Below are positions 4,302 through 64,000 of a stretch of DNA of 64,000 nucleotides, in pieces. A program made the position numbers and the translations under genes. Location: NCBI GenBank assembly GCA_900095095.1, contig FMBT01000295.1, positions 1 to 64,000 of the forward strand. The letters are read 5' to 3'. Source of the stretch: Fragilariopsis cylindrus CCMP1102. Lineage: Eukaryota; Bacillariophyta; Bacillariophyceae; Bacillariales; Bacillariaceae. Within the stretch, counting starts at the first letter, position 1; each line of letters begins with the position of its first letter. The notes beneath the pieces are model-generated. The model was not told the origin of the DNA and did not search any database. It saw nothing but the letters and a program-made list of their open reading frames with translations.

Positions 4302-6097
4302 ATGAAGTTCGCATCATCTATTGTATTCATCAGCATCTGCTCTGCAGTAGCAGCAGCAACTACGACCTCCGTTGATTCTTCATCACTGAGAGGAAGAAAC
4401 ACTCAACAGAACGACGAAGAATCAATTACTTATGGTAATGGTAATATTGCTAATAATGTTCATATCGTCCGTGCGATCGGCAAACCTGACGACTATGATG
4501 ATGATAAATATACCAAGCCTTACTCTTCGTCCAAAGGTGACAAAAAGTACACGAAAGACTACTCACCAAAGATAAAGGACGGAAAGGGAACCAAGCCTTA
4601 CTCCAAGGACAGCAAGGGAACCAAGCCTTACTCCAAGGACAGCAAGGGAACTAAGCCTTACTCTAAGGACAGCAAGGATTCCAAGTCTTACTCCAAGGAC
4701 AGCAAGGGAACTAAGCCTTACTCCAAGGACAGCAAGGGAACCAAGCCTTACTCCAAGGACAGCAAGGATTCCAAGTCTTACTCCAAGGACAGCAAGGATT
4801 CCAAGCCTTACTCCAAGGACAGCAAGGGAACCAAGCCTTACTCCAAGGACAGCAAGGATTCCAAGTCTTACTCCAAGGACAGCAAGGATTCCAAGCCTTA
4901 CTCCAAGGACAGCAAGGGAACCAAGCCTTACTCCAAGGACTCCAAGGACGGCAAGTATTCCAAAGTTGACAAAAAGTACTCGAAGGACTCTAAGGACAGC
5001 AAGGATTCCAAAGACTCGAAGGATTCCAAAGTTGACAAAAAGTACTCAAAAGACTCTAAGGATTCCAAAGTTGACAAAAAGTACTCGAAGGACTCTAAGG
5101 ACAGCAAGGATTCCAAAGACTCTAAGGATTCCAAAGTTGACAAAAAGTACTCTAAGGACAGCAAGGATTCCAAAGACTCTAAGGATTCCAAAGTTGACAA
5201 AAAGTACTCTAAGGACAGCAAGGATTCCAAAGACTCTAAGGATTCCAAAGTTGACAAAAAGTACTCTAAGGACAGCAAGGATTCCAAAGACTCGAAGGCC
5301 AAACAAGGTAAGTTACATACTCATATAATTCATTGTCGATGTCGGTGCATCATATCGATGACTGCTAACATTTTTTATCTATTTATTTATTAATTTCACC
5401 TCCAAAAAAAAAATCGTTTTGCACCCTCACTAAAACAGACAAGAAAGGACATCAAGATAGAAACCAGAAATTGACTAAGCCACAGTCAAGACCCGTACCG
5501 TCTTCTAGCGCTGATGATAAAGGCAATAACGATGACAAGGGCGACGACAAGGTGAGATTCATTTTTGTTTAGACACTGTGACATGAATGTGATTCGTTCC
5601 AATTTGTGCATTCCGTATTTTCGTTGTAACTAATTATTTTTAAATCCTTTTCCATTTCGCTTTTTTTCCTCACTCCACCAATGCACAATATAGGACGATG
5701 CTAAAGAAGACAAAAATGAAGACAAGAATGAAGACAAAAATAATGGCAAAGACGACGACAAGGTGAGATCCATTTTTGTATAGACGCTGTGACATAAATG
5801 TGATTCGTTCCAATTTGTGCATTCCATATTTTTGTTGCAACTGATTATTTTTTAAATTCTCATCCATTCCACTTTTTTCTACTCCACCATTGCACAATAT
5901 AGGACGATAATAAAGAAGAAAAGAATGATGATGGGGACAGAGCGGGCGAGGACAAAAAGGACGATGATAAGGATGAAGATAAGGCCGAAAAGGAAGATAA
6001 AAATAATGAAATGAAGGAGGATGATAAAAGACGGGGTCTACAAAGTGTAGTATCTCCTCCTTTAGTAAGGAGAAATAAAATCCGGGGTAGCAATTAA
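4302..6097 (+). CDS. Silaffin-like secreted Lys/Ser/Tyr-rich repeat protein
   Basis: Four exons can be read with canonical GT-AG borders: 4302-5307, 5439-5551, 5694-5762 and 5903-6097, giving about 460 aa. Residues 1-19 form a signal peptide (Lys, then a hydrophobic core ending AVAAA). The mature protein is low complexity: twelve decapeptides of the form (GT/DS)K(P/S)YSKDSK, then six units built on VDKKYSKDS, then an acidic Lys/Asp/Glu tail and a basic C-terminus with RRGL and VRR. Secreted Lys/Ser-rich proteins with regularly spaced lysines are the hallmark of diatom silaffins and related silica-associated proteins; Lys modification and Ser phosphorylation are known for that group. The silica role is inferred from composition and signal peptide only. 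The start is the first ATG of the frame, just after an A-run. The tail switches from basic repeat to DDK-rich acidic sequence in the three small exons, two of which carry near-identical introns. Confidence 0.7.
4587..5307 (+). repeat. Coding minisatellite: 30-bp and about 57-66-bp units
   Basis: The first array (4587-4946) is twelve 30-bp units encoding GTKPYSKDSK, DSKSYSKDSK or DSKPYSKDSK, arranged in a partly periodic order that suggests multi-unit duplications. The second array (about 4959-5307) has six units starting VDKKYSKDS followed by a variable number of KDS tripeptides. Nucleotide identity between units is very high, so the arrays are young or homogenised. Confidence 0.9.
5552..5902 (+). 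repeat. Duplicated intron-exon module
   Basis: Intron 2 (5552-5693) and intron 3 (5763-5902) are near copies over their whole length: both begin GTGAGAT(T/C)CATTTTTGT, share a CTGTGACAT(G/A)AATGTGATTCG block and end TGCACAATATAG. The exon ends before them (GACGACAAG) and starts after them (GACGAT) also match. The unit of intron plus short acidic exon has therefore been tandemly duplicated. Confidence 0.9.
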
Positions 6098-25380: not shown

Positions 25381-26214
25381 TCAAAATGGCAATTCGATAC
25401 ATTTCTTCTTTTTATGTTTTTTTTTTCCCTTCTTCTTTTCCACCTTGGAATTATCTCCATTACTACTACTGCATCTACTTGTGGCTGAATATACTGATGA
25501 TTCATCTTGATTATAATCATCATCTCTTCTTACAATAATACTCGGCCTTCTGCTACCTCGGCGTGACGGCCTTCTAATACCGTGTGACACTCGTCGCCCA
25601 GTGCTATTACTACTCTTCATAGTAGTAGGAACAATATCTTCGGTATCACCATACCCATAATCACCAGAGGATGAAGAGATCATCGTATCTTGTCTCCCAT
25701 TAGAGGTGCTATTACTGCTCTTCATAGTAGTAGGAACAATATCTTCGGTATCACCATAACCATAATCACCAGAGGAGGAAGATATCATCGTATCTTGTCT
25801 CCCATTAGAGGTAATATTTCTACTGGAACGTCTTTTATTGCCCATGTTACGTTGATTACTATTACTACGATGACGACCACCCCTATCTTCCTCTTGTTCA
25901 CCTCTTCTCAATTTATTTTTATTACTGGCAGCATTACTCCAACGACCAGTATCACCATCAACGCCTGATGCGCCACTAATACTACTGATAGCACTATTCC
26001 AACGACTAAATGTGTCATCACCACCGCCACCGCCACCGCCACCTGATGATGGCATTGTCATCTTTAATGATGCTAATTCCAGTAAAAAATCTTCATTCTG
26101 TTCCTCTAATTGTTCAATTTTTCGTATATGCTCTGCACGTTCTATCCGCAGTTCTTTTATTTCTTTTTCTCGCAATGATAATAGTTTCTCAGTCATAGTT
26201 GGTTCAGCTCTCAT
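25381..26214 (-). CDS. Hypothetical protein with N-terminal coiled coil and 35-aa tandem repeat
   Basis: A protein of 277 aa from the first ATG at 26214; the frame stays open upstream, so an earlier exon is possible. Residues about 5-50 form a charged coiled coil (heptads in KLLSLREKEIKEL and IRKIEQLEEQNEDF). After a Gly run comes Ser/Asn/Arg-rich sequence. A 105-bp direct repeat, nearly identical, encodes two copies of a 35-residue unit (NGRQDTMISSSSGDYGYGD... to TMKSSN). The C-terminus is very basic (KKKGKKKHKKKKC). No known domain was found. It may be a cytoskeletal or centrosomal adaptor, but that is speculation. Confidence 0.6.
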   Translation of the reverse strand: MRAEPTMTEKLLSLREKEIKELRIERAEHIRKIEQLEEQNEDFLLELASLKMTMPSSGGGGGGGGDDTFSRWNSAISSISGASGVDGDTGRWSNAASNKNKLRRGEQEEDRGGRHRSNSNQRNMGNKRRSSRNITSNGRQDTMISSSSGDYGYGDTEDIVPTTMKSSNSTSNGRQDTMISSSSGDYGYGDTEDIVPTTMKSSNSTGRRVSHGIRRPSRRGSRRPSIIVRRDDDYNQDESSVYSATSRCSSSNGDNSKVEKKKGKKKHKKKKCIELPF

Positions 26215-52994: not shown

Positions 52995-53232
52995 TATTGA
53001 ATTACTAACGAACGCTGACAGACCAAGCGCGCGCCCACATTCAAATAGTAGAACAATCACGCCGGACAAGAGAGCTGTTACAACCAGCCAGCCAAACCGC
53101 TTACTCAACAGGCTTGACAGCCTCAGCAAAGCACTCAAGCAGAGCTTAGTTGGAACCAATAGCATAGGCTCATTAATCGTTTAGAACAACCTTTACAAAT
53201 ACTACTAATATTCGCCTACTTAGCTCTTAACA
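52995..53232 (+). repeat. 5' LTR
   Basis: It starts TATTGAATTACTAACG immediately after the CTTGT target copy and ends CTCTTAACA. It matches the 3' LTR base for base over about 238 bp. A promoter is expected here by family rule; no TATA box was confirmed. Confidence 0.9.
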
Positions 53233-53318
53233 GTTCTAAACAATATTGTCGCAGGACAATAAACTAGGTAACAATACAAGTACATCTCCAGGGATAACGT
53301 ACAGTAACAACAAAGACA

Positions 53319-54611
53319 ATGACATCAGCGTCGAAATTTGACTACGACCTATCCGGAATTGACCGGATTGACGGAATTCCAACTGTGGGTCAGACACTTA
53401 CGTTCCAGAGACAACTAGCAACCATCCAAACCAGTTACACATGCAAGTATGAACATGCTGGAGCCCATGGATGGTCATGGATTATGTGCGACGATGCACA
53501 CTGGCTGGCAAAAAGAGGAATCACCAACGTGGTCGCAACCCCAACTGAACCCGGACCGTACACAGGATCTACACACACCCACAAGTTCAAGTACCAACTT
53601 GACGTCAAGAACTATGATGAGTACAAGGAACACCTACGCAATAGCTTAAAAGCATTCGCAACCTGCTTCACTGAAGGATTATTCATCGACTTGGAAACAG
53701 ATGGACAAATCATTGGCTACAGCCCAATGCAAATCTACACACACATCAAAACCAACTTCCTCCTACCAAGAGACATCTCTCGGGAGATCACCAAGACTAG
53801 ATCCGATCTCAAGGTAGCTTACAACCCCGACGACATTGTCCAGATCTACTACAAAAGCATCCAAACATCAAAGCTTACATTGGCAGCATTAGGTGACCCG
53901 GTCACCGATGTGGAAATCATGCGGTGTGCATTCGAAACATTTGAAGTACAATCAGATCTAAAAGAAGCATGCCGCGAGTGGGATAGACAAGCTGCACCAC
54001 CCACATGGGCAAGGATGATGGTACACTTCAGCATTGAAATTCAAAGAAACAGAACTGACCCATCCAAACTCAAATTACAAGGAGAAGCAAATGCAGTCCT
54101 CAAACAGGTAGAGCAGCAAGAAGAAAAGCAACGCCTACAATCGGAATGCATGGTAGCACAAACAGATACAATCAATCGTCTACAAGAACAACTAACAGCT
54201 GTACAGTACGAACAACAAGCCAACGGAGCAGCAAGCGTCAATGGATCCTTACCCGGACGGATCCCAGCATTGATTTCAACAGGATTGACACAAGAATCAA
54301 TGGAAGCCATGTTCAAGAAATGGACAGCAACACAGGCAGCAGGTGCGCCAGCAACAGATCGAATGACGGGCAAGGAGAGGAAGAAGAAAAAGTTTGGTGT
54401 AAACTTTATTGAAAATGACTTACCAAATGCTGAACGCTCCAAGCGCAGATACCCTAACTCAACCAACTACTGCTCGTCCCATGGATATGATATTTCACCT
54501 GACCATGACAGCAGCAACTGCAAGAAGCGAAATGCCAACCACAATGAGGCAGCCACCATCACGAACATGTTAGGTGGTGTCACAACGAACTGCTTCCACC
54601 ACAACGCATGA
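53319..54611 (+). CDS. Copia gag
   Basis: A frame of 430 codons about 90 bp after the 5' LTR. It has the UBN2-like gag core in the first two thirds (for example the KTRSDLKVAYNP segment), a coiled-coil-like Gln/Glu-rich part near residues 255-290, and near the C-terminus a zinc-knuckle-like CSSHG...H....C pattern. It would form the capsid of the intracellular virus-like particle. It is a fossil or recently active element gene, not a host gene. Confidence 0.85.
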   Translation: MTSASKFDYDLSGIDRIDGIPTVGQTLTFQRQLATIQTSYTCKYEHAGAHGWSWIMCDDAHWLAKRGITNVVATPTEPGPYTGSTHTHKFKYQLDVKNYDEYKEHLRNSLKAFATCFTEGLFIDLETDGQIIGYSPMQIYTHIKTNFLLPRDISREITKTRSDLKVAYNPDDIVQIYYKSIQTSKLTLAALGDPVTDVEIMRCAFETFEVQSDLKEACREWDRQAAPPTWARMMVHFSIEIQRNRTDPSKLKLQGEANAVLKQVEQQEEKQRLQSECMVAQTDTINRLQEQLTAVQYEQQANGAASVNGSLPGRIPALISTGLTQESMEAMFKKWTATQAAGAPATDRMTGKERKKKKFGVNFIENDLPNAERSKRRYPNSTNYCSSHGYDISPDHDSSNCKKRNANHNEAATITNMLGGVTTNCFHHNA

Positions 54612-54623
54612 TGGTGTCGGGAG

Positions 54624-57600
54624 GTGAACAGTAAAAAGTTAAATCAAAATAAATTAATTAAAAATGAATTAACACAATACAACCCATCTTCGCGTACAAA
54701 ATACATGTCATATGCAGCAGCAGTAACAAGCAATAGTAATAGCAAGCTGAGCGACCTAACCGCGAGACTACAACCAATCACAAACAACATACCACAGGGC
54801 CATCCGGACACAGCAGCAACAGGAACATTCCTAGCCAAACATCACAGTACACTAGGAACAACAATGCACCATGAACAATTCGGGGTCCTATGCGCAAATA
54901 ACACCACAATGAACTCAACCACAACCAGGCAATTGAATCTCTCACCACATCTTCCGGCCATTGCACAACAAGGACACGCTTTCAAGGAAATGGACAAATC
55001 ACTCGTCTCAGTACCAGTACTATGTGACGCTGGCTGCCAAGTACTCTTCGGAGAACACAACGTACAGGTAATACGGAACAACCAAGTCATTATTGAGGGT
55101 GATCGCGATGCCGTAACCAACCTATGGCTCATACCACTGGAAAACAACAACAATAGCAAAGAAAACCAACCTCGATCCGCATACATACAATTACAACACA
55201 GGGCCAACAGCGCATACAGGCAAAAATCAGCAGCACACCTACAAGCATTCCACCATGCATCACTAGGAGCACCAGTCGTTACTGCACTAATCAGAGCAAT
55301 CAACAATAACTGGCTAACTTCATTTCCAGGATTAACAGCAGATGGCGTACGAAAACACCTACCAAAATCAATCCAAACCACAATGGGACATATGCACAAA
55401 GTCAGACAAAACATACGCTCAACAAAAGTGGTAACAGACAAGGAAATAATGGAAGAAAACAAAGATGAAACAGACCCATCGGAAGACTACCTACCACCTC
55501 GCATCATCAACAACAGAGATCACATTGTACAGATTACAGCAATCAAATTTGCAGACCTAAAAGGCATGACGTCCAGTGACCAAACCGGAGCTTTTCCACA
55601 TACATCAGCAAAGGGAAATCGATACGTAATGATAATGGAGGATAGCGACACGGGAGTAATACTAGCCACAGGCATCACATCTAGAAAGAAGGAACACTTA
55701 TTAGAAGGCTTCAAAACAATGCACGACACTCTCAAGAAAGCTGGTATCAACCCCGTCATCCACAGAATAGACAATGAATTTTCAACAGATCTGATAGAAG
55801 AAATTGAAGCAAGAGGATTAGCATACCAAATAGCACCACCTGGTAATCATCGTACTCTCCCAGCTGAACGCTCAATCCAGACATTTAAAAATCACTTCGA
55901 ATCCACTCTCTATGGGTGTGATCCTGGATTCCCCAAAAATCAATGGGATAGACTAATCGACATTGCAGTAATAACTTTAAACATGCTCAGAGGATCACGA
56001 ATCAACCCAAAGAAATCAGCATACAATGAAATATGGGGTAACTTCGACTTCAACAAAACACCACTAGCACCACCTGGCTGCCTAATTGTAGCGCATGAAC
56101 GACCACAGGACAGAGGAACATGGGCTGAACACGGAGTAAAAGGGTACTTCATCGGTCCAGCGAAACATCACTACAGGAATTATGAGGTCTACATACCAAC
56201 AACAAGAGGAGTGAGAACCACGGACACAATTGAATTCTTTCCAAAACACGTACAAATGCCAATGACATCATCAGAAGATAGACTAGCAAGTGTAACAGAA
56301 GATTTAGTAGCAATACTGCAACAACCACATCCACCTACGCCATTTCTCAGTCAAGGAACAAAAACGAATGACGCCATTAACAGATTAAGTGAAATATTCA
56401 CACCTAGACAACGGAATGAGGCAGCTACAAGGGTGGCAGGGCAACAGGAAGACCAACACCAACACTTCAATACGAACCGAGTAGCTACAAGGGTGGCATT
56501 ACCAACAATTAACGAAGATGAAATAGGAACCAAAATAAGAAAAAACTACAACAACACCATTCAACAAGGCGAAGTAACACATTACAACGAAATTGAAAAG
56601 CTATATTACATCACATATGACAGTGGAGACAGTGAGCAAGTAAGCAATAGAACACTCAACCAATACCGATGCAATGATACAGATACAGACCTAGCACGAC
56701 GAATGACCAGACTATCAACACGACTACAAAGAGCCAACATCGTACAACAAAATAAGAATGCCAGAACAGGAGCAAAACTACCAGCTCACTTTGCAAATGC
56801 GGTATTCGATGAAGACACTGGAAAAATGCTAGATTACAAGCAATTAATCAACCACAACAAAAAAGAAACAAGAGAGTGGTGGCAACAATCCTCTACAAAC
56901 GAGTTTGGAAGACTCATGAAAGGCGCAGGACGCAACAAAGATGGCACACAACGAGTAACAGGTTCTGACACATTCCACTTCATCCACAAGAAAGATGTCC
57001 CACAAGAAAAGAAAGTAACATACGCAAGGTTTGTCTGTGATATAAGACTACAAAAAGATGAAATCAACCGTACAAGACTAACAGTAGGAGGAAATCTCCT
57101 GGAATACGAAGGAAAGACAAGCACTGAATCTGCAGGCCTGGAAACAATCAAAATACACCTCAACAGTACAATATCAACACCGGGCGCCCAGTACGCAGCA
57201 GCCGATATCAGAAACTTCTACACAAACTCAAAACTTAAAACATCAGAGTACATGAAAATTCACATCAGCATGATACCACAAGAGATAATCAACGAATACG
57301 ATGTAATGAAGTTAGTGGCCATGGATGGATACGTCTATGTAGAAATAACTGGAGCCATGTACGGACTAGCACAGAGTGGAAGAATCGCAAACCAAGACCT
57401 CCAAAAGCACTTAGCAAAGTATGGATACTACCCATCACGAAGGACGCCAGGACTATGGAAACACAGAACAAGGAAAATCAACTTCACACTTGTTGTGGAC
57501 GACTTTGGAATAAAATACACCAACAAGAATGATATTGATCACCTAATTGATGCAATCAAAGAAAAATACCCAATAAAAATTGATTGGGAAGGATCCAAAT

Positions 57601-58704
57601 ACATTGGCATCGATTTAAAATGGGACTATACCAAACGAGAAGTTCACACTATCGATGAAAGGATATGCAACACGAGCATTAAAGCAATTCCAACACCCAA
57701 TGCCAACCAAACACCACTACGGACCAACCAAGTACATTCCACCGGAATATGGAAAAAAGATCCAGTATGAAACAGAAGATATGTCACCAATTTTAACAGA
57801 CAAACAGAAGAATCATGTACAGAAAGTATGTGGAAAGTTTCTATACAACGGCCGAGGAGTAGACATGACACAACTACACTCACTCAACGAACTAAGTATT
57901 CACGCTACAACAGCAACAGAAGAAACCCAAGCAGCCCTCATACTATTCCTCAACTACATTGCCAGCAATCCTGATGCAACCATAATCTACAGAGCAAGCG
58001 ACATGATACTATCGTGTGAAAGTGATGCAGCCTACCAAGTAGCACCAAAATCAAGAAGCAGAGCAGGAGGATACACATACTTAGGAAATAAAGCAGGAAC
58101 ACAATTCAACGGACCAATCCATGTACTAGCCAAAATAATCAAGGCAGTAATGGGATCAGCAGCTGAAGCTGAAGTTGCAGGCCTATACATGAATGCACAA
58201 GAACTATCGCCAATGCGAACAACCCTGGAAGAACTAGACCATCCACAACCACCTACACCATTGAAAACTGACAACAGCACAGCAGATGGTATAATGAACA
58301 AAACAATCAAACAAAGACAAAGCAAGGCAATGGACAAAAGATTCTATTGGCTACAGGACAGAGTCAAACAAGGAGAATTCAATGTATTCTGGGCACCAGG
58401 AAAACACAATTTAGCAGACTACTTCACCAAATACCATTCTCCTGCCACACACAAAAAATTAAGACCTATATATACATATATAGAAGGAAAAAGTCCAACG
58501 ACATTGCAAGGGTGTATTGAATTACTAACGAACGCTGACAGACCAAGCGCGCGCCCACATTCAAATAGTAGAACAATCACGCCGGACAAGAGAGCTGTTA
58601 CAACCAGCCAGCCAAACCGCTTACTCAACAGGCTTGACAGCCTCAGCAAAGCACTCAAGCAGAGCTTAGTTGGAACCAATAGCATAGGCTCATTAATCGT
58701 TTAG
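54624..58704 (+). mobile_element. Copia pol region
   Basis: The order is protease (VLCDAGCQVLFG), integrase core (FPHTSAKGNRYV, then RIDNE and PAERSIQTFKNHFES), reverse transcriptase (FVCDIRLQ, QYAAADIRNFYTN, GAMYGLAQSG, LVVDDFGIKYT) and RNase H (SDAAYQ, then AEAEVAGLYMNAQE and KTDNSTAD). The coding sequence runs into the 3' LTR, which supplies its last residues. About one break is present; otherwise the domains look intact. Confidence 0.88.
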
Positions 58705-58770
58705 AACAACCTTTACAAATACTACTAATATTCGCCTACTTAGCTCTTAACACCTACTTAGCTCTTAACA
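58515..58770 (+). repeat. 3' LTR
   Basis: It matches the 5' LTR apart from a short extra repeat of the final CCTACTTAGCTCTTAACA unit. It is followed directly by the right CTTGT target copy. The pol frame ends within it at 58704. Confidence 0.88.
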
Positions 58771-61008: not shown

Positions 61009-61278
61009 TCAATTGCATTCACCCGTGGTACATTTTTGTTTATTTGCACAATATACAGTATTTTTCTTCCTGCACATCTTTCTCTTACACACGTAACGTG
61101 TGCATTTTCTTTTTTTAAATACGTTTTTACAATCTCGCTTTTTCTTGCAGCACTTACTCATTTTTTTCTTGTTTTCACAAATCCCTCTCTTTTTCTTACA
61201 TTTGTCCTTCGTGCATTTGTCATTATCATCACAATCTTTGTGATTTTTACATTCTCTCGTAGGTGATGCATATATAAC
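61009..61278 (-). CDS. Cysteine-rich, lysine-rich open frame (probable terminal exon), 14 Cys
   Basis: An open frame of 89 sense codons ending in TGA (61009-61011). It is bounded upstream by a TAA and lacks an ATG near its start, so it is probably the last exon of a larger gene or a remnant; an in-frame ATG occurs at residue 40. It has 14 Cys and about 28 Lys. Cys positions are 10, 16, 22, 27, 34, 43, 44, 50, 59, 64, 69, 77, 83 and 88. Three modules of C-x(5-7)-C-x(5-8)-C-x4-C can be drawn (10-27, 44-64, 69-88). The even count and regular spacing point to a disulfide-bonded, secreted or vacuolar protein with small knottin- or WAP-like modules. No signal peptide was found in the preceding 90 bp, where the next gene ends. 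A direct family match is not recognised. Confidence 0.5.
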   Translation of the reverse strand, partial: VIYASPTRECKNHKDCDDNDKCTKDKCKKKRGICENKKKMSKCCKKKRDCKNVFKKRKCTRYVCKRKMCRKKNTVYCANKQKCTTGECN

Positions 61279-61370
61279 TTATTATTTAATAGCTGCAGCT
61301 TTGCTCCTTAAGGTCTTAGAAAGACAGAAAGTCAACAATCTACCCGCCAAATTTATTCTACATTTATTTA

Positions 61371-64000
61371 TTACTTGGGTTCATCTCCATATCTGTCATC
61401 AATTACCTGCTTTCCCACCTCCAATGCTGTTTGCTCTCTGCTAGTTGATCTCTTCTTTCCCAATGTGTTGTACAATGTTGATATCAAATGATTAACCGTA
61501 TGTTTGATTTTCTTTATTACTGGAAGTACTCTACTTGATGATCGCTTCTTCTTTAATCTTGTGTACACATTTGTCAATGGGTTATTGGAATATTTCTTTG
61601 GTTTCGATTGCTTTGTTGTTTTCCTTGAAACCTTGGTCTTTGCTGGTTTGTTCTTTGTGAAGTGTTGCCATATCGGTTTCCTGTTGTCTTGTGCTAGTTC
61701 TTTCACTCTTTTCATGCTATGATCTATTACTGGTCTCCATCTGTTGATCCACTTTTTCAATTGTTGGTTTGTGTCTGCAAGTTTTGATAGTAGTGTTTCA
61801 TCATATATCTTAATTTCATCTTCTGGCAATACCATTTCTTTCAGTGTATACAGATGAGTTACTTGCTTGCATAGAGAATCATATTCTGCTGCTATTCTGC
61901 CCCCTAATACCGGTGTATTTCTGTCAATGCACCTATCCGTCCACATTTCTAATATTATTGGTACTATTGACTGAAAGAAACCATGAAATTCTTCTGTTTT
62001 ATTTTTTCTTTTTGTTGTTTTGTTGTTGTTGTTTGCATCATTTTGTTGCTCTTGTTGTCTTTTTCTCTGTCTTTTTATCCTATCATACTCAATTGGATCT
62101 ACTAGGCGTAGTCTGGTCTTATATGCTTTCTGTTGTATTCTCCACTCCTTTGAAAATTTTCCTCTTAACAGGTTGTCCCACCCTATTACTGTTTGTTCAT
62201 CTATTAAATTTTTGTACCTTCCCATGCCTTTCCCTCCTCTTATTCTAAACATGGTGTTGGACATGCAGTCCCCTTTGAAGTATGCCATTAATCCTTCCTG
62301 TAGTATGTCACACAAGTTCTTATCCACTGTTTTGCGCAGTACATTTATTTGATTGACAACCTTCTTTCTTACGCTTCTTCTGTTATCACACTGGAGGATG
62401 TGGTCATCATCTTCGTCATCCAAACATGATGCGCATCTCTTGTCATGGAAGTGGTCTCTTTTGTGTACTCTTTCTCCTGTTGGAAGTTTCTTTATGCAAA
62501 ATTTATGCATCCATGCTATTCCTTTTGTAGTTAGGCGTTTCTTGTAGACTGGTCGAAATACATCCCAATCTATTAAGTCAAAAATATTGTCACTCCACTT
62601 GAATCTGATACAGTAGAATTTTCTTAGTGGTTTTAGTTGTATTATTTCTCTCACCGTGTTTTTGAAGTTTCTTGTTATTGTTCTTCCTTCGATATGGAAC
62701 TGTATGCATGTGTTCGGATCCATTGGTACAATAGGTTTTTCTTGTAGTCTCTTCAGTCCTATCGTTGCTAGTTCATCTGCTTCTGAGTTCAGATAGGCAT
62801 CCAGTGGCATCGCTTTCTCATCAAAAACCATATCATCTTGGTGACTCTTTACCCAGCTTAGTTTTGGATACGTTCTGAATTTCTTCAAAGTCCTGCTTAA
62901 TGCTGAAAGTACATCCCACTCTGAGTTAAGTACTGTCTTCAGGTGAGCTGTTGGATATTCATCATATGCTTCTAGTTTCTTTATCATACTTAGGCTGTCA
63001 GTGTATACCTGTATTTTTCCTCTTGCTGGTTCATCACATTGTATTTGTTGATCATAATATTCTGTTATCAGCTGTAAGCACTTCGCTGCTGCCAGTAGCG
63101 CGCATATTTCAGATCTGAATGATAGCGGATCATTTCCTGATGGTTGTCCATAGCAAGATAGCAGTACTGTTCCATCCTCATCTGCTACTACAAATCCCAG
63201 AGAACCTTTGAGTGGTATTGCTCCTCCATCTGTTGCTATGTTGTATTTTCTTGGTGATTTTATGAGTTCATAAACTTCAAATGGTGTTGTTAGGAAGTTT
63301 ATTTCTGCATAGTACTGTGATACATGTTCTTCTTGTGATTGTAGATATTGCATTATTGTTTTGCTCTCCTCGTGTTCTTCGTCTTGTTTTCTTATTGGGT
63401 GGTGTTCTGATATTCTCCATCCATCTTCAGTGTCCATTACATCTGTTGGTGATGCATCATTCGGTAGTCTTTCCACATTGCCTTCTGGTACATAGTTGTA
63501 TGTATCATTGTCTGCTATCATGTGGCAGTCATAGTAGTATTCTCCATTGGTGTGCCATTCCTTTCTAAAGCTCCTGTAGAGAGTGTCGGTTTCTTCTGAA
63601 TAATAGTATGGCCACAGCCGTTCTGAATCATTGGCTTGTACTAGCCAGTCACCTAGTGGCTTCGTCAGTCTCATCCGTTGTCCTATCTCACCTGTCATTC
63701 TTCCCTCTTCTCTGTATTTCTTCTCATACTTTACTACTTCTGTATGATTAAGTTCCTCTTCATCGCCGTCCTCATATAGTATCTTGTAGTATTTGCCTGT
63801 ATTGTTCATTACAATGCCCCTGAAAGGTACTCCGACCCAGTATTTGAGTAGGAACGTTCCAATGCTAACCTTGTCTATCACGTCTTTTCTCTGCTGCAGT
63901 CCCTCATTTTCTATGAGGGCATCCCTATTTTCCATTGGGGTTGGTTCGGTTCTTGGCTCGGTGGATAGGTTGAGTCGTGAGCTGGGTCCGGGTTCGGATC
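61371..64000 (-). CDS. Tudor-like + RNase H + zinc-tail protein, 5' end beyond window
   Basis: An intact frame from the window edge to 61371. The first internal ATG at 63935 would give 854 aa, but the frame stays open to base 64000, so the true start may lie outside. Residues about 25-75 resemble a PTM/DIR17-like Tudor domain (VPFRGIVMNNTGKYYKILY then EDGDEEELNHTEV). Residues about 230-400 are an RNase H fold with all four acidic positions (ATDGGA, RSEICALLAAA, VYTDSLSM, NSEADELA). A later CASCLDDEDDDHILQC is a zf-RVT-like zinc motif, followed by a long basic region. The tail is like that of retroelement polyproteins, but no reverse transcriptase is seen here; it would have to lie beyond the Tudor-like part. 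It may be a captured or multi-copy element gene. Confidence 0.7.
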   Translation of the reverse strand, partial: SEPGPSSRLNLSTEPRTEPTPMENRDALIENEGLQQRKDVIDKVSIGTFLLKYWVGVPFRGIVMNNTGKYYKILYEDGDEEELNHTEVVKYEKKYREEGRMTGEIGQRMRLTKPLGDWLVQANDSERLWPYYYSEETDTLYRSFRKEWHTNGEYYYDCHMIADNDTYNYVPEGNVERLPNDASPTDVMDTEDGWRISEHHPIRKQDEEHEESKTIMQYLQSQEEHVSQYYAEINFLTTPFEVYELIKSPRKYNIATDGGAIPLKGSLGFVVADEDGTVLLSCYGQPSGNDPLSFRSEICALLAAAKCLQLITEYYDQQIQCDEPARGKIQVYTDSLSMIKKLEAYDEYPTAHLKTVLNSEWDVLSALSRTLKKFRTYPKLSWVKSHQDDMVFDEKAMPLDAYLNSEADELATIGLKRLQEKPIVPMDPNTCIQFHIEGRTITRNFKNTVREIIQLKPLRKFYCIRFKWSDNIFDLIDWDVFRPVYKKRLTTKGIAWMHKFCIKKLPTGERVHKRDHFHDKRCASCLDDEDDDHILQCDNRRSVRKKVVNQINVLRKTVDKNLCDILQEGLMAYFKGDCMSNTMFRIRGGKGMGRYKNLIDEQTVIGWDNLLRGKFSKEWRIQQKAYKTRLRLVDPIEYDRIKRQRKRQQEQQNDANNNNKTTKRKNKTEEFHGFFQSIVPIILEMWTDRCIDRNTPVLGGRIAAEYDSLCKQVTHLYTLKEMVLPEDEIKIYDETLLSKLADTNQQLKKWINRWRPVIDHSMKRVKELAQDNRKPIWQHFTKNKPAKTKVSRKTTKQSKPKKYSNNPLTNVYTRLKKKRSSSRVLPVIKKIKHTVNHLISTLYNTLGKKRSTSREQTALEVGKQVIDDRYGDEPK

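Follow-up and report, generated by a model that had tools for sequence, protein, structure and literature searches.

A cysteine-rich reading frame that has no start codon and lies directly beside a mobile element raises the question of which protein it once belonged to and how it was cut off. The frame is located on the minus strand of the window, the whole stretch of 64,000 nucleotides analysed, which corresponds to bases 1–64000 of contig C88. The host genome, 67.9 Mb in size, matches the silicon transporter family 27 times (best score 757 bits), with some of the matches falling on exons of a single gene, and is assigned to a diatom because of these matches. On balance, the frame probably encodes the tail end of a secreted-type protein that has lost the rest of its gene; most likely it was once the C-terminus of a protease-like protein encoded upstream, from which a 4.0-kb insertion and then a retrotransposon have separated it. 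The features discussed are listed in Table 1.

Table 1. Features of the locus; positions marked C88 are given on the contig.
Feature	Position	Strand	Description
Cysteine-rich frame	61009–61278	minus	89 codons and stop (stop codon 61009–61011)
Probable orphaned 3′ end of a host gene	61009–61269	minus	ASPTRE (last Pro/Thr linker residues), Lys-rich 14-Cys tail and stop; basis: open frame, linker identity at C89
Module 1, CTDC-type repeat	61177–61251	minus	CKNHKDCDDNDKCTKDKCKKKRGIC; PF00526; nine-unit bacterial profile 25.6 bits
Module 2, divergent CTDC-like unit	61072–61152	minus	CCKKKRDC...CTRYVCKRKMC; profile scores 4.2 and −1.4 bits
Module 3, partial unit at the C-terminus	61015–61050	minus	CANKQKCTTGEC; Cys pattern; profile score 1.7 bits
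Target-site duplication, 3′ copy	61255–61269	minus	GCATCACCTACGAGA; 15 bp, read directly
Non-LTR retrotransposon, 3′ part	61270–64000, on to C88:71957	minus	10,688 bp in full; dispersed copies, target-site duplication
ORF2	C88:61371–68732	minus	2453 codons, uninterrupted; stop codon 61371–61373
ORF1	C88:68716–71847	minus	uninterrupted
Target-site duplication, 5′ copy	C88:71958–71972, beyond the window	minus	GCATCACCTACGAGA; 15 bp, read directly
Secreted-type gene	C88:73000–71981	minus	signal-like first exon, presumed intron, second exon; adjoins stranded linker
Zinc-protease-like gene	C88:78006–75856	minus (same as the cysteine-rich frame)	716-codon frame, apparent signal peptide

A lysine-rich frame with a CTDC-type repeat

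The frame translates as VIYASPTRECKNHKDCDDNDKCTKDKCKKKRGICENKKKMSKCCKKKRDCKNVFKKRKCTRYVCKRKMCRKKNTVYCANKQKCTTGECN, followed by a stop codon, and contains no in-frame ATG at its upstream end; this absence fits with simple gene finding overlooking it. The 14 cysteines occupy residues 10, 16, 22, 27, 34, 43, 44, 50, 59, 64, 69, 77, 83 and 88 and would be expected to form disulfides. Three non-overlapping occurrences of C-x(5-7)-C-x(5-8)-C-x4-C start at residues 10, 44 (or 43) and 69, and the string KCT-x3-C is present in all three modules. The original prediction, made without database searches, had described just such an 89-codon minus-strand frame lacking an upstream ATG, with this cysteine pattern repeated three times, and the translation bears it out. 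It was also right in calling the product lysine-rich; the proportion of about a third given for lysine is a little too high, the count being 25 of 89 residues (28%), or 32 of 89 (36%) when arginine is included. Counted from the first cysteine, the tail is 39% Lys+Arg and 10% Asp+Glu. The improbability of such spacing arising by chance, which had likewise been claimed, was confirmed with 200,000 residue shuffles of the protein, none of which contained three modules (the motif C-x5-C-[DN]x4-CTxDxC appeared in four). Among the 304 stop-to-stop frames of at least 60 codons in the window, this is the sole frame with two or more modules. It is real coding sequence and not a product of chance.

A Pfam scan of the frame returned a sole match, Dicty_CTDC (PF00526), at residues 15–35, with 25.2 bits and an E-value of 1.4e-5 against a curated cut-off of 27; the ShK family (PF01549) was not matched. 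In the genome-wide PF00526 profile scan, module 1 reached 28.1 bits, above the cut-off, and the second place among the six candidates scored had 17.4 bits, below it. Sub-cut-off matches to the family were found in two of 14 control genomes. None of ten residue shuffles of the protein matched PF00526; two of them matched other Pfam families weakly, below the respective cut-offs. Module 1 contains CTxDxC with the preceding C-x5-C (CKNHKDCDDNDKCTKDKC), which together form C-x5-C-D-D-x3-C-T-x-D-x-C, the same core as in the Dicty_CTDC repeat of Dictyostelium matrix proteins. With a profile built from nine bacterial CTDC units, module 1 scored 25.6 bits, a value reached by none of 2000 shuffles with fixed cysteines (maximum 23.2) and by none of the 1998 full shuffles reported out of 2000; the units of this profile were fetched with peptide patterns derived from the query, making the test partly circular, and the Pfam match constitutes independent evidence. 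Modules 2 and 3 are recognisable by their Cys–Thr frame alone, with weak scores of at most 4.2 bits in this home-made profile; the order CC-x5-C...CT-x3-C of module 2 is that of one bacterial unit of locus L075. CTDC proteins typically possess several tandem units recognised by profile; the frame contains a single Pfam-matched stretch. As read from its sequence, the tail comprises some two and a half cysteine repeats of the CTDC type, rich in lysine and placed behind a Pro/Thr-rich linker.

The tail differs from Dicty_CTDC repeats in being rich in lysine between the cysteines, in keeping little beyond the Cys–Thr frame in modules 2 and 3, and in occupying one convincing place in the genome, where it is orphaned. 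CTDC-repeat loci were found in three bacteria, an unclassified bacterium (L075), a member of Phycisphaerales (L076) and a member of Myxococcales (L077), with units ordered as in the orphan tail; the stretch DCDDNDKCT of the Phycisphaerales locus is identical to the tail. The arrays of L075 and L077 are longer than the tail, and the bacterial units are visibly poorer in lysine. A second genomic copy of the tail was not present among the candidates scored (one in the similarity search, six in the PF00526 scan), and no relative was confirmed among viral contigs. The PDB sequence search gave a single match with an E-value of 1.1, which was disregarded, and AlphaFold2 run without an alignment gave an unusable model (mean pLDDT 44.3). 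In the collection of papers searched, none pairs Dicty_CTDC with a diatom or with Stramenopiles. In the part of the Dictyostelium account considered here, CTDC-domain matrix proteins are counted among the exposed or secreted proteins, four of them being signals or signal regulators (PMC4931340).

A retrotransposon in the host linker

The first three codons of the frame, VIY (61278–61270), are the last nine bases of a retrotransposon, and the host-derived part begins at 61269. A full-length non-LTR retrotransposon of 10,688 bp is inserted here into the host linker, 18 bases ahead of the first cysteine codon. The insertion is evident because a 15-bp target-site duplication flanks the element on both sides and because both ends of the element are common to dispersed copies. 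Bases 61450–61270 form a dispersed repeat: with 40 of 201 candidates scored, the genome search gave 41 other rows at 79–100% identity, of which 20 reach at least 97%, and all 41 end at query positions 176–187, i.e., window positions 61275–61264. In all 19 copies fetched, the similarity to the window breaks off at the 3′ end of the element or a few bases before it, which rules out the cysteine-rich tail being the retrotransposon's own part; shared flanks in two pairs of these copies (L010/L011 and L015/L017) probably represent one insertion on two contigs each. The 5′ end, C88:71957, is the start of eight of the 11 other fetched copies, and the remaining three match from 15 bases further in. 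The ORF2 product scores slightly below the Pfam cut-offs for RVT_1 (26.1 bits, cut-off 29.6) and Exo_endo_phos (24.2 bits, cut-off 24.5), and RNase H text in the element is recognisable by eye only. A match of ORF2 to the Tudor-like family PF21743 (23.9 bits, cut-off 27.2) lies between the RT and zf-RVT regions.

The element supports the suggestion that a neighbouring mobile element had cut off the 5′ part of the sequence. The accompanying proposal of a secreted, disulfide-rich exon stands as far as the coding of a cysteine-rich tail of a secreted-type protein is concerned; it finds no support as regards an exon of a working gene, as neither a start codon nor a joined upstream frame is seen at the locus and the two genome searches, which scored the best candidates, gave no second copy. 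The frame is probably no longer translated today. A coding remnant can thus stay hidden when a retrotransposon has taken away its start.

Read back past the 5′ copy of the duplication, the frame continues as a Pro/Thr linker, NSPIVVSTASPTRE. The segment of this linker as it was before the insertion (40 bases on the 5′ side and, on the 3′ side, three past the duplication) agrees base for base with positions 253589–253631 of contig C89. A 29-base core of the linker is found in two genomic places only, C88 and C89, with up to three mismatches allowed. At C89, the linker lies in the same frame (NSPIVVSTASPTRE), within a frame of 980 codons that has a long Pro/Thr linker, so the reading frame of the tail is confirmed independently of its cysteines.

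The upstream protease-like gene and its apparent change of tail

At the locus, a protease-like frame sits about 4 kb upstream and contains the string HELMHHMGHGH, which we take to fit the metzincin zinc-protease motif HExxHxxGxxH. The frame of 716 aa, scanned without its second tail exon, matched no Pfam family at E-values up to 1. The linker of this gene agrees with the C89 linker at 110 of 111 bases, an agreement that ends in ACTAAT (position 4992 of locus L042); that of the stranded linker with C89 begins at TAATAG (position 4989). The two pieces thus adjoin at C89, in one frame and with the four bases TAAT in common; at C88, 4,023 bases now separate them. The patch shared by C89 and C88 extends over 150 bases with one mismatch and links C89 to a putative ancestral gene at C88, where protease, linker and cysteine-rich tail would have formed one continuous whole. 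The contiguity and common frame of the linker pieces at C89 point to the protease as the former owner of the tail; this argument has one other locus, C89, as its sole basis.

The protease changes its tail at this same point. Within three bases of ACTAAT, its sequence becomes 85% identical to contig C108 over 1.66 kb. At C108, the lysine-rich tail in question follows a DUF285 protein and a different linker. At both loci the tail has a second exon; the two exons taken together give a dN of 0.059 and a dS of 0.181, values in keeping with a protein in use. The likeness of such CPxxC-ending tails to ShK domains is visible by eye only: Pfam called no ShK domain in the frame of the C88 protease or in that at C108, and the 20 places returned by the PF01549 genome scan include none of the tails at C88, C108, C184, C124 and C507.

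The simplest course of events suggested by the sequence junctions is the following. In the ancestral C88 gene, the protease, the Pro/Thr linker and the CTDC-type Cys/Lys tail would have been continuous in one frame. A segment of 4.0 kb, beginning with the different lysine-rich cysteine tail and ending in a second secreted-type gene, would then have entered the protease linker at TAAT; the protease would thereby have acquired another tail, and the old CTDC tail would have been left stranded. In the second step, to which the target-site duplication attests, the 10.7-kb non-LTR retrotransposon entered the remaining linker. The 4.0-kb segment may have arrived as a single insertion; the TAAT overlap of four bases is too short to serve as proof of a target-site duplication. 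No donor for the segment in its entirety was found, C108 matching the first 1.66 kb and scattered later pieces; the secreted-type gene had no significant match within 2.9 kb beyond the 1.66-kb region of C108. An assembly join error may also lie at the edges of the segment, near C88:76,020 and C88:71,998. Within the segment, a MITE-like repeat of about 338 bp, with inverted ends of about 69 bp that are 81% alike, is located at C88:73817–74154 (L025:3817–4154); most of the 62 rows that a genome search gave are due to it.

The secreted-type gene enters the linker out of frame and soon meets a stop: linker DNA encodes only its final six residues, IIVQSL. Three relatives of this gene on contig C78 have frames without a cysteine-rich tail, and in the alignment the gene ends earlier than their C-termini. 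Neither the gene (two exons) nor the scanned part of the C89 frame received a usable Pfam name. The out-of-frame run into the linker and the tailless C78 relatives make it probable that this gene was not the original N-terminus of the tail.

The tail might instead come from a separate third gene, whose N-terminal part was lost, together with the end of the secreted-type gene, in a deletion that preceded the retrotransposon. This is unlikely, albeit plausible in a genome where Pro/Thr linkers occur in several other genes and at a locus where the secreted-type gene terminates within the stranded linker after entering it in another frame; it leaves unexplained why, on C89, the stranded linker starts within four bases of the point where the protease linker stops and does so in the same frame. 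It is far less probable that the tail is still used, through splicing of the secreted-type gene across the 10.7-kb element from GTAAGT in the linker to the cysteine-rich frame. The GTAAGT at the end of the upstream frame is indeed the donor sequence of the presumed first intron of that gene; within the 980-codon frame at C89, however, the same GTAAGT is ordinary coding sequence, the intron would have spanned 23 bases before the insertion, and no pyrimidine-rich acceptor is visible by eye. A chance open frame in lysine-rich, AT-rich DNA is scarcely credible and is ruled out by the shuffle tests, including that with PF00526: when these 267 bases are shuffled 20,000 times with dinucleotides preserved (120,000 frames), stop-free frames of this length are not rare (9,461) and the window holds two frames richer in cysteine, yet no shuffled frame has 14 cysteines, neither of the two richer frames contains any module, PF00526 is matched, and the frame is extended upstream by a linker that has the same frame at C89.

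Former ownership of the tail by the protease is thus the reading preferred here. It allows a broader and more tentative one, namely that diatom secreted proteases possess exchangeable, strongly basic cysteine-rich tails behind Pro/Thr linkers, that short and almost unchanged linker patches shared by otherwise unrelated genes, such as the 150-base patch common to the zinc-protease-like gene and another secreted-type gene, are joints for the swapping of whole tails, and that this locus was caught just after such a swap. If so, the CTDC tail is the old one, now stranded, and the lysine-rich tail the one in use. The locus would then be an example of how secreted diatom proteins are rebuilt, in which two types of tail could be compared on one enzyme.

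Basic cysteine-rich tails and other repeats

Among eight other loci with Pro/Thr linkers, three (C307, C507 and C124) carry a basic cysteine-rich tail. The tail at C259 contains cysteines and is not basic (9% Lys+Arg); at the remaining four (C89, C108:556268, C527 and C702), such a tail is absent. Searching with the protease itself brought up two further basic tails, at C108 and C184. Lys+Arg makes up 27–33% of seven tail pieces other than the orphan (protease, C108, C184, C307 and C124), which contain 4–12 cysteines; the measured tails were chosen by eye, and the C507 tail, basic by eye, is not in this set. The proteins concerned (L071/L073 at C108 and C184, L048 at C307, L049 at C507 and L052 at C124) are different secreted-type proteins in which a linker precedes the basic cysteine-rich tail; one contains DUF285 and one resembles a serine protease by eye.

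The tails of the C88 protease, C108, C184, C124 and C507 share with the orphan tail a basic, cysteine-rich character and a C-terminal position after a Pro/Thr-rich or similar linker; they differ from it in ending in CPxxC and in lacking the CTDC motif. Another comparison is offered by the ACR domains of frustulins, diatom wall proteins. In the excerpted description, these domains are cysteine-rich, sometimes with proline-rich stretches between them, and are acidic, with the hexapeptides CQGDCD and VPGCSG (PMC4712521). Cysteine-richness in a diatom is what the orphan tail shares with them; the tail is strongly basic, contains neither hexapeptide and is not a domain of this kind.

A module of this kind, basic, cysteine-rich and borne on a flexible linker, would suit a holding tail. 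The tail probably served to dock the ancestral enzyme on the anionic cell wall, whether on its polysaccharides or on silica. More generally, C-terminal tails rich in cysteine and lysine may act as targeting tags for the surface enzymes of diatoms.

The window contains several other repeats. A likely LTR retrotransposon on the plus strand (52995–58752) is bounded by identical direct repeats of 238 bp (52995–53232 and 58515–58752), an identity that suggests recent insertion; its open frame, in which RNase H text of copia-like character can be made out by eye, extends to 58704, inside the second repeat. Tandem arrays at 4485–5298 consist of 30-base units, followed by units whose spacing is a multiple of 9 or 39 bases, and after them comes a pair of 128-base repeats at 5517–5855. 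Two tandem units of 105 bases at 25601–25810 are 96% alike.
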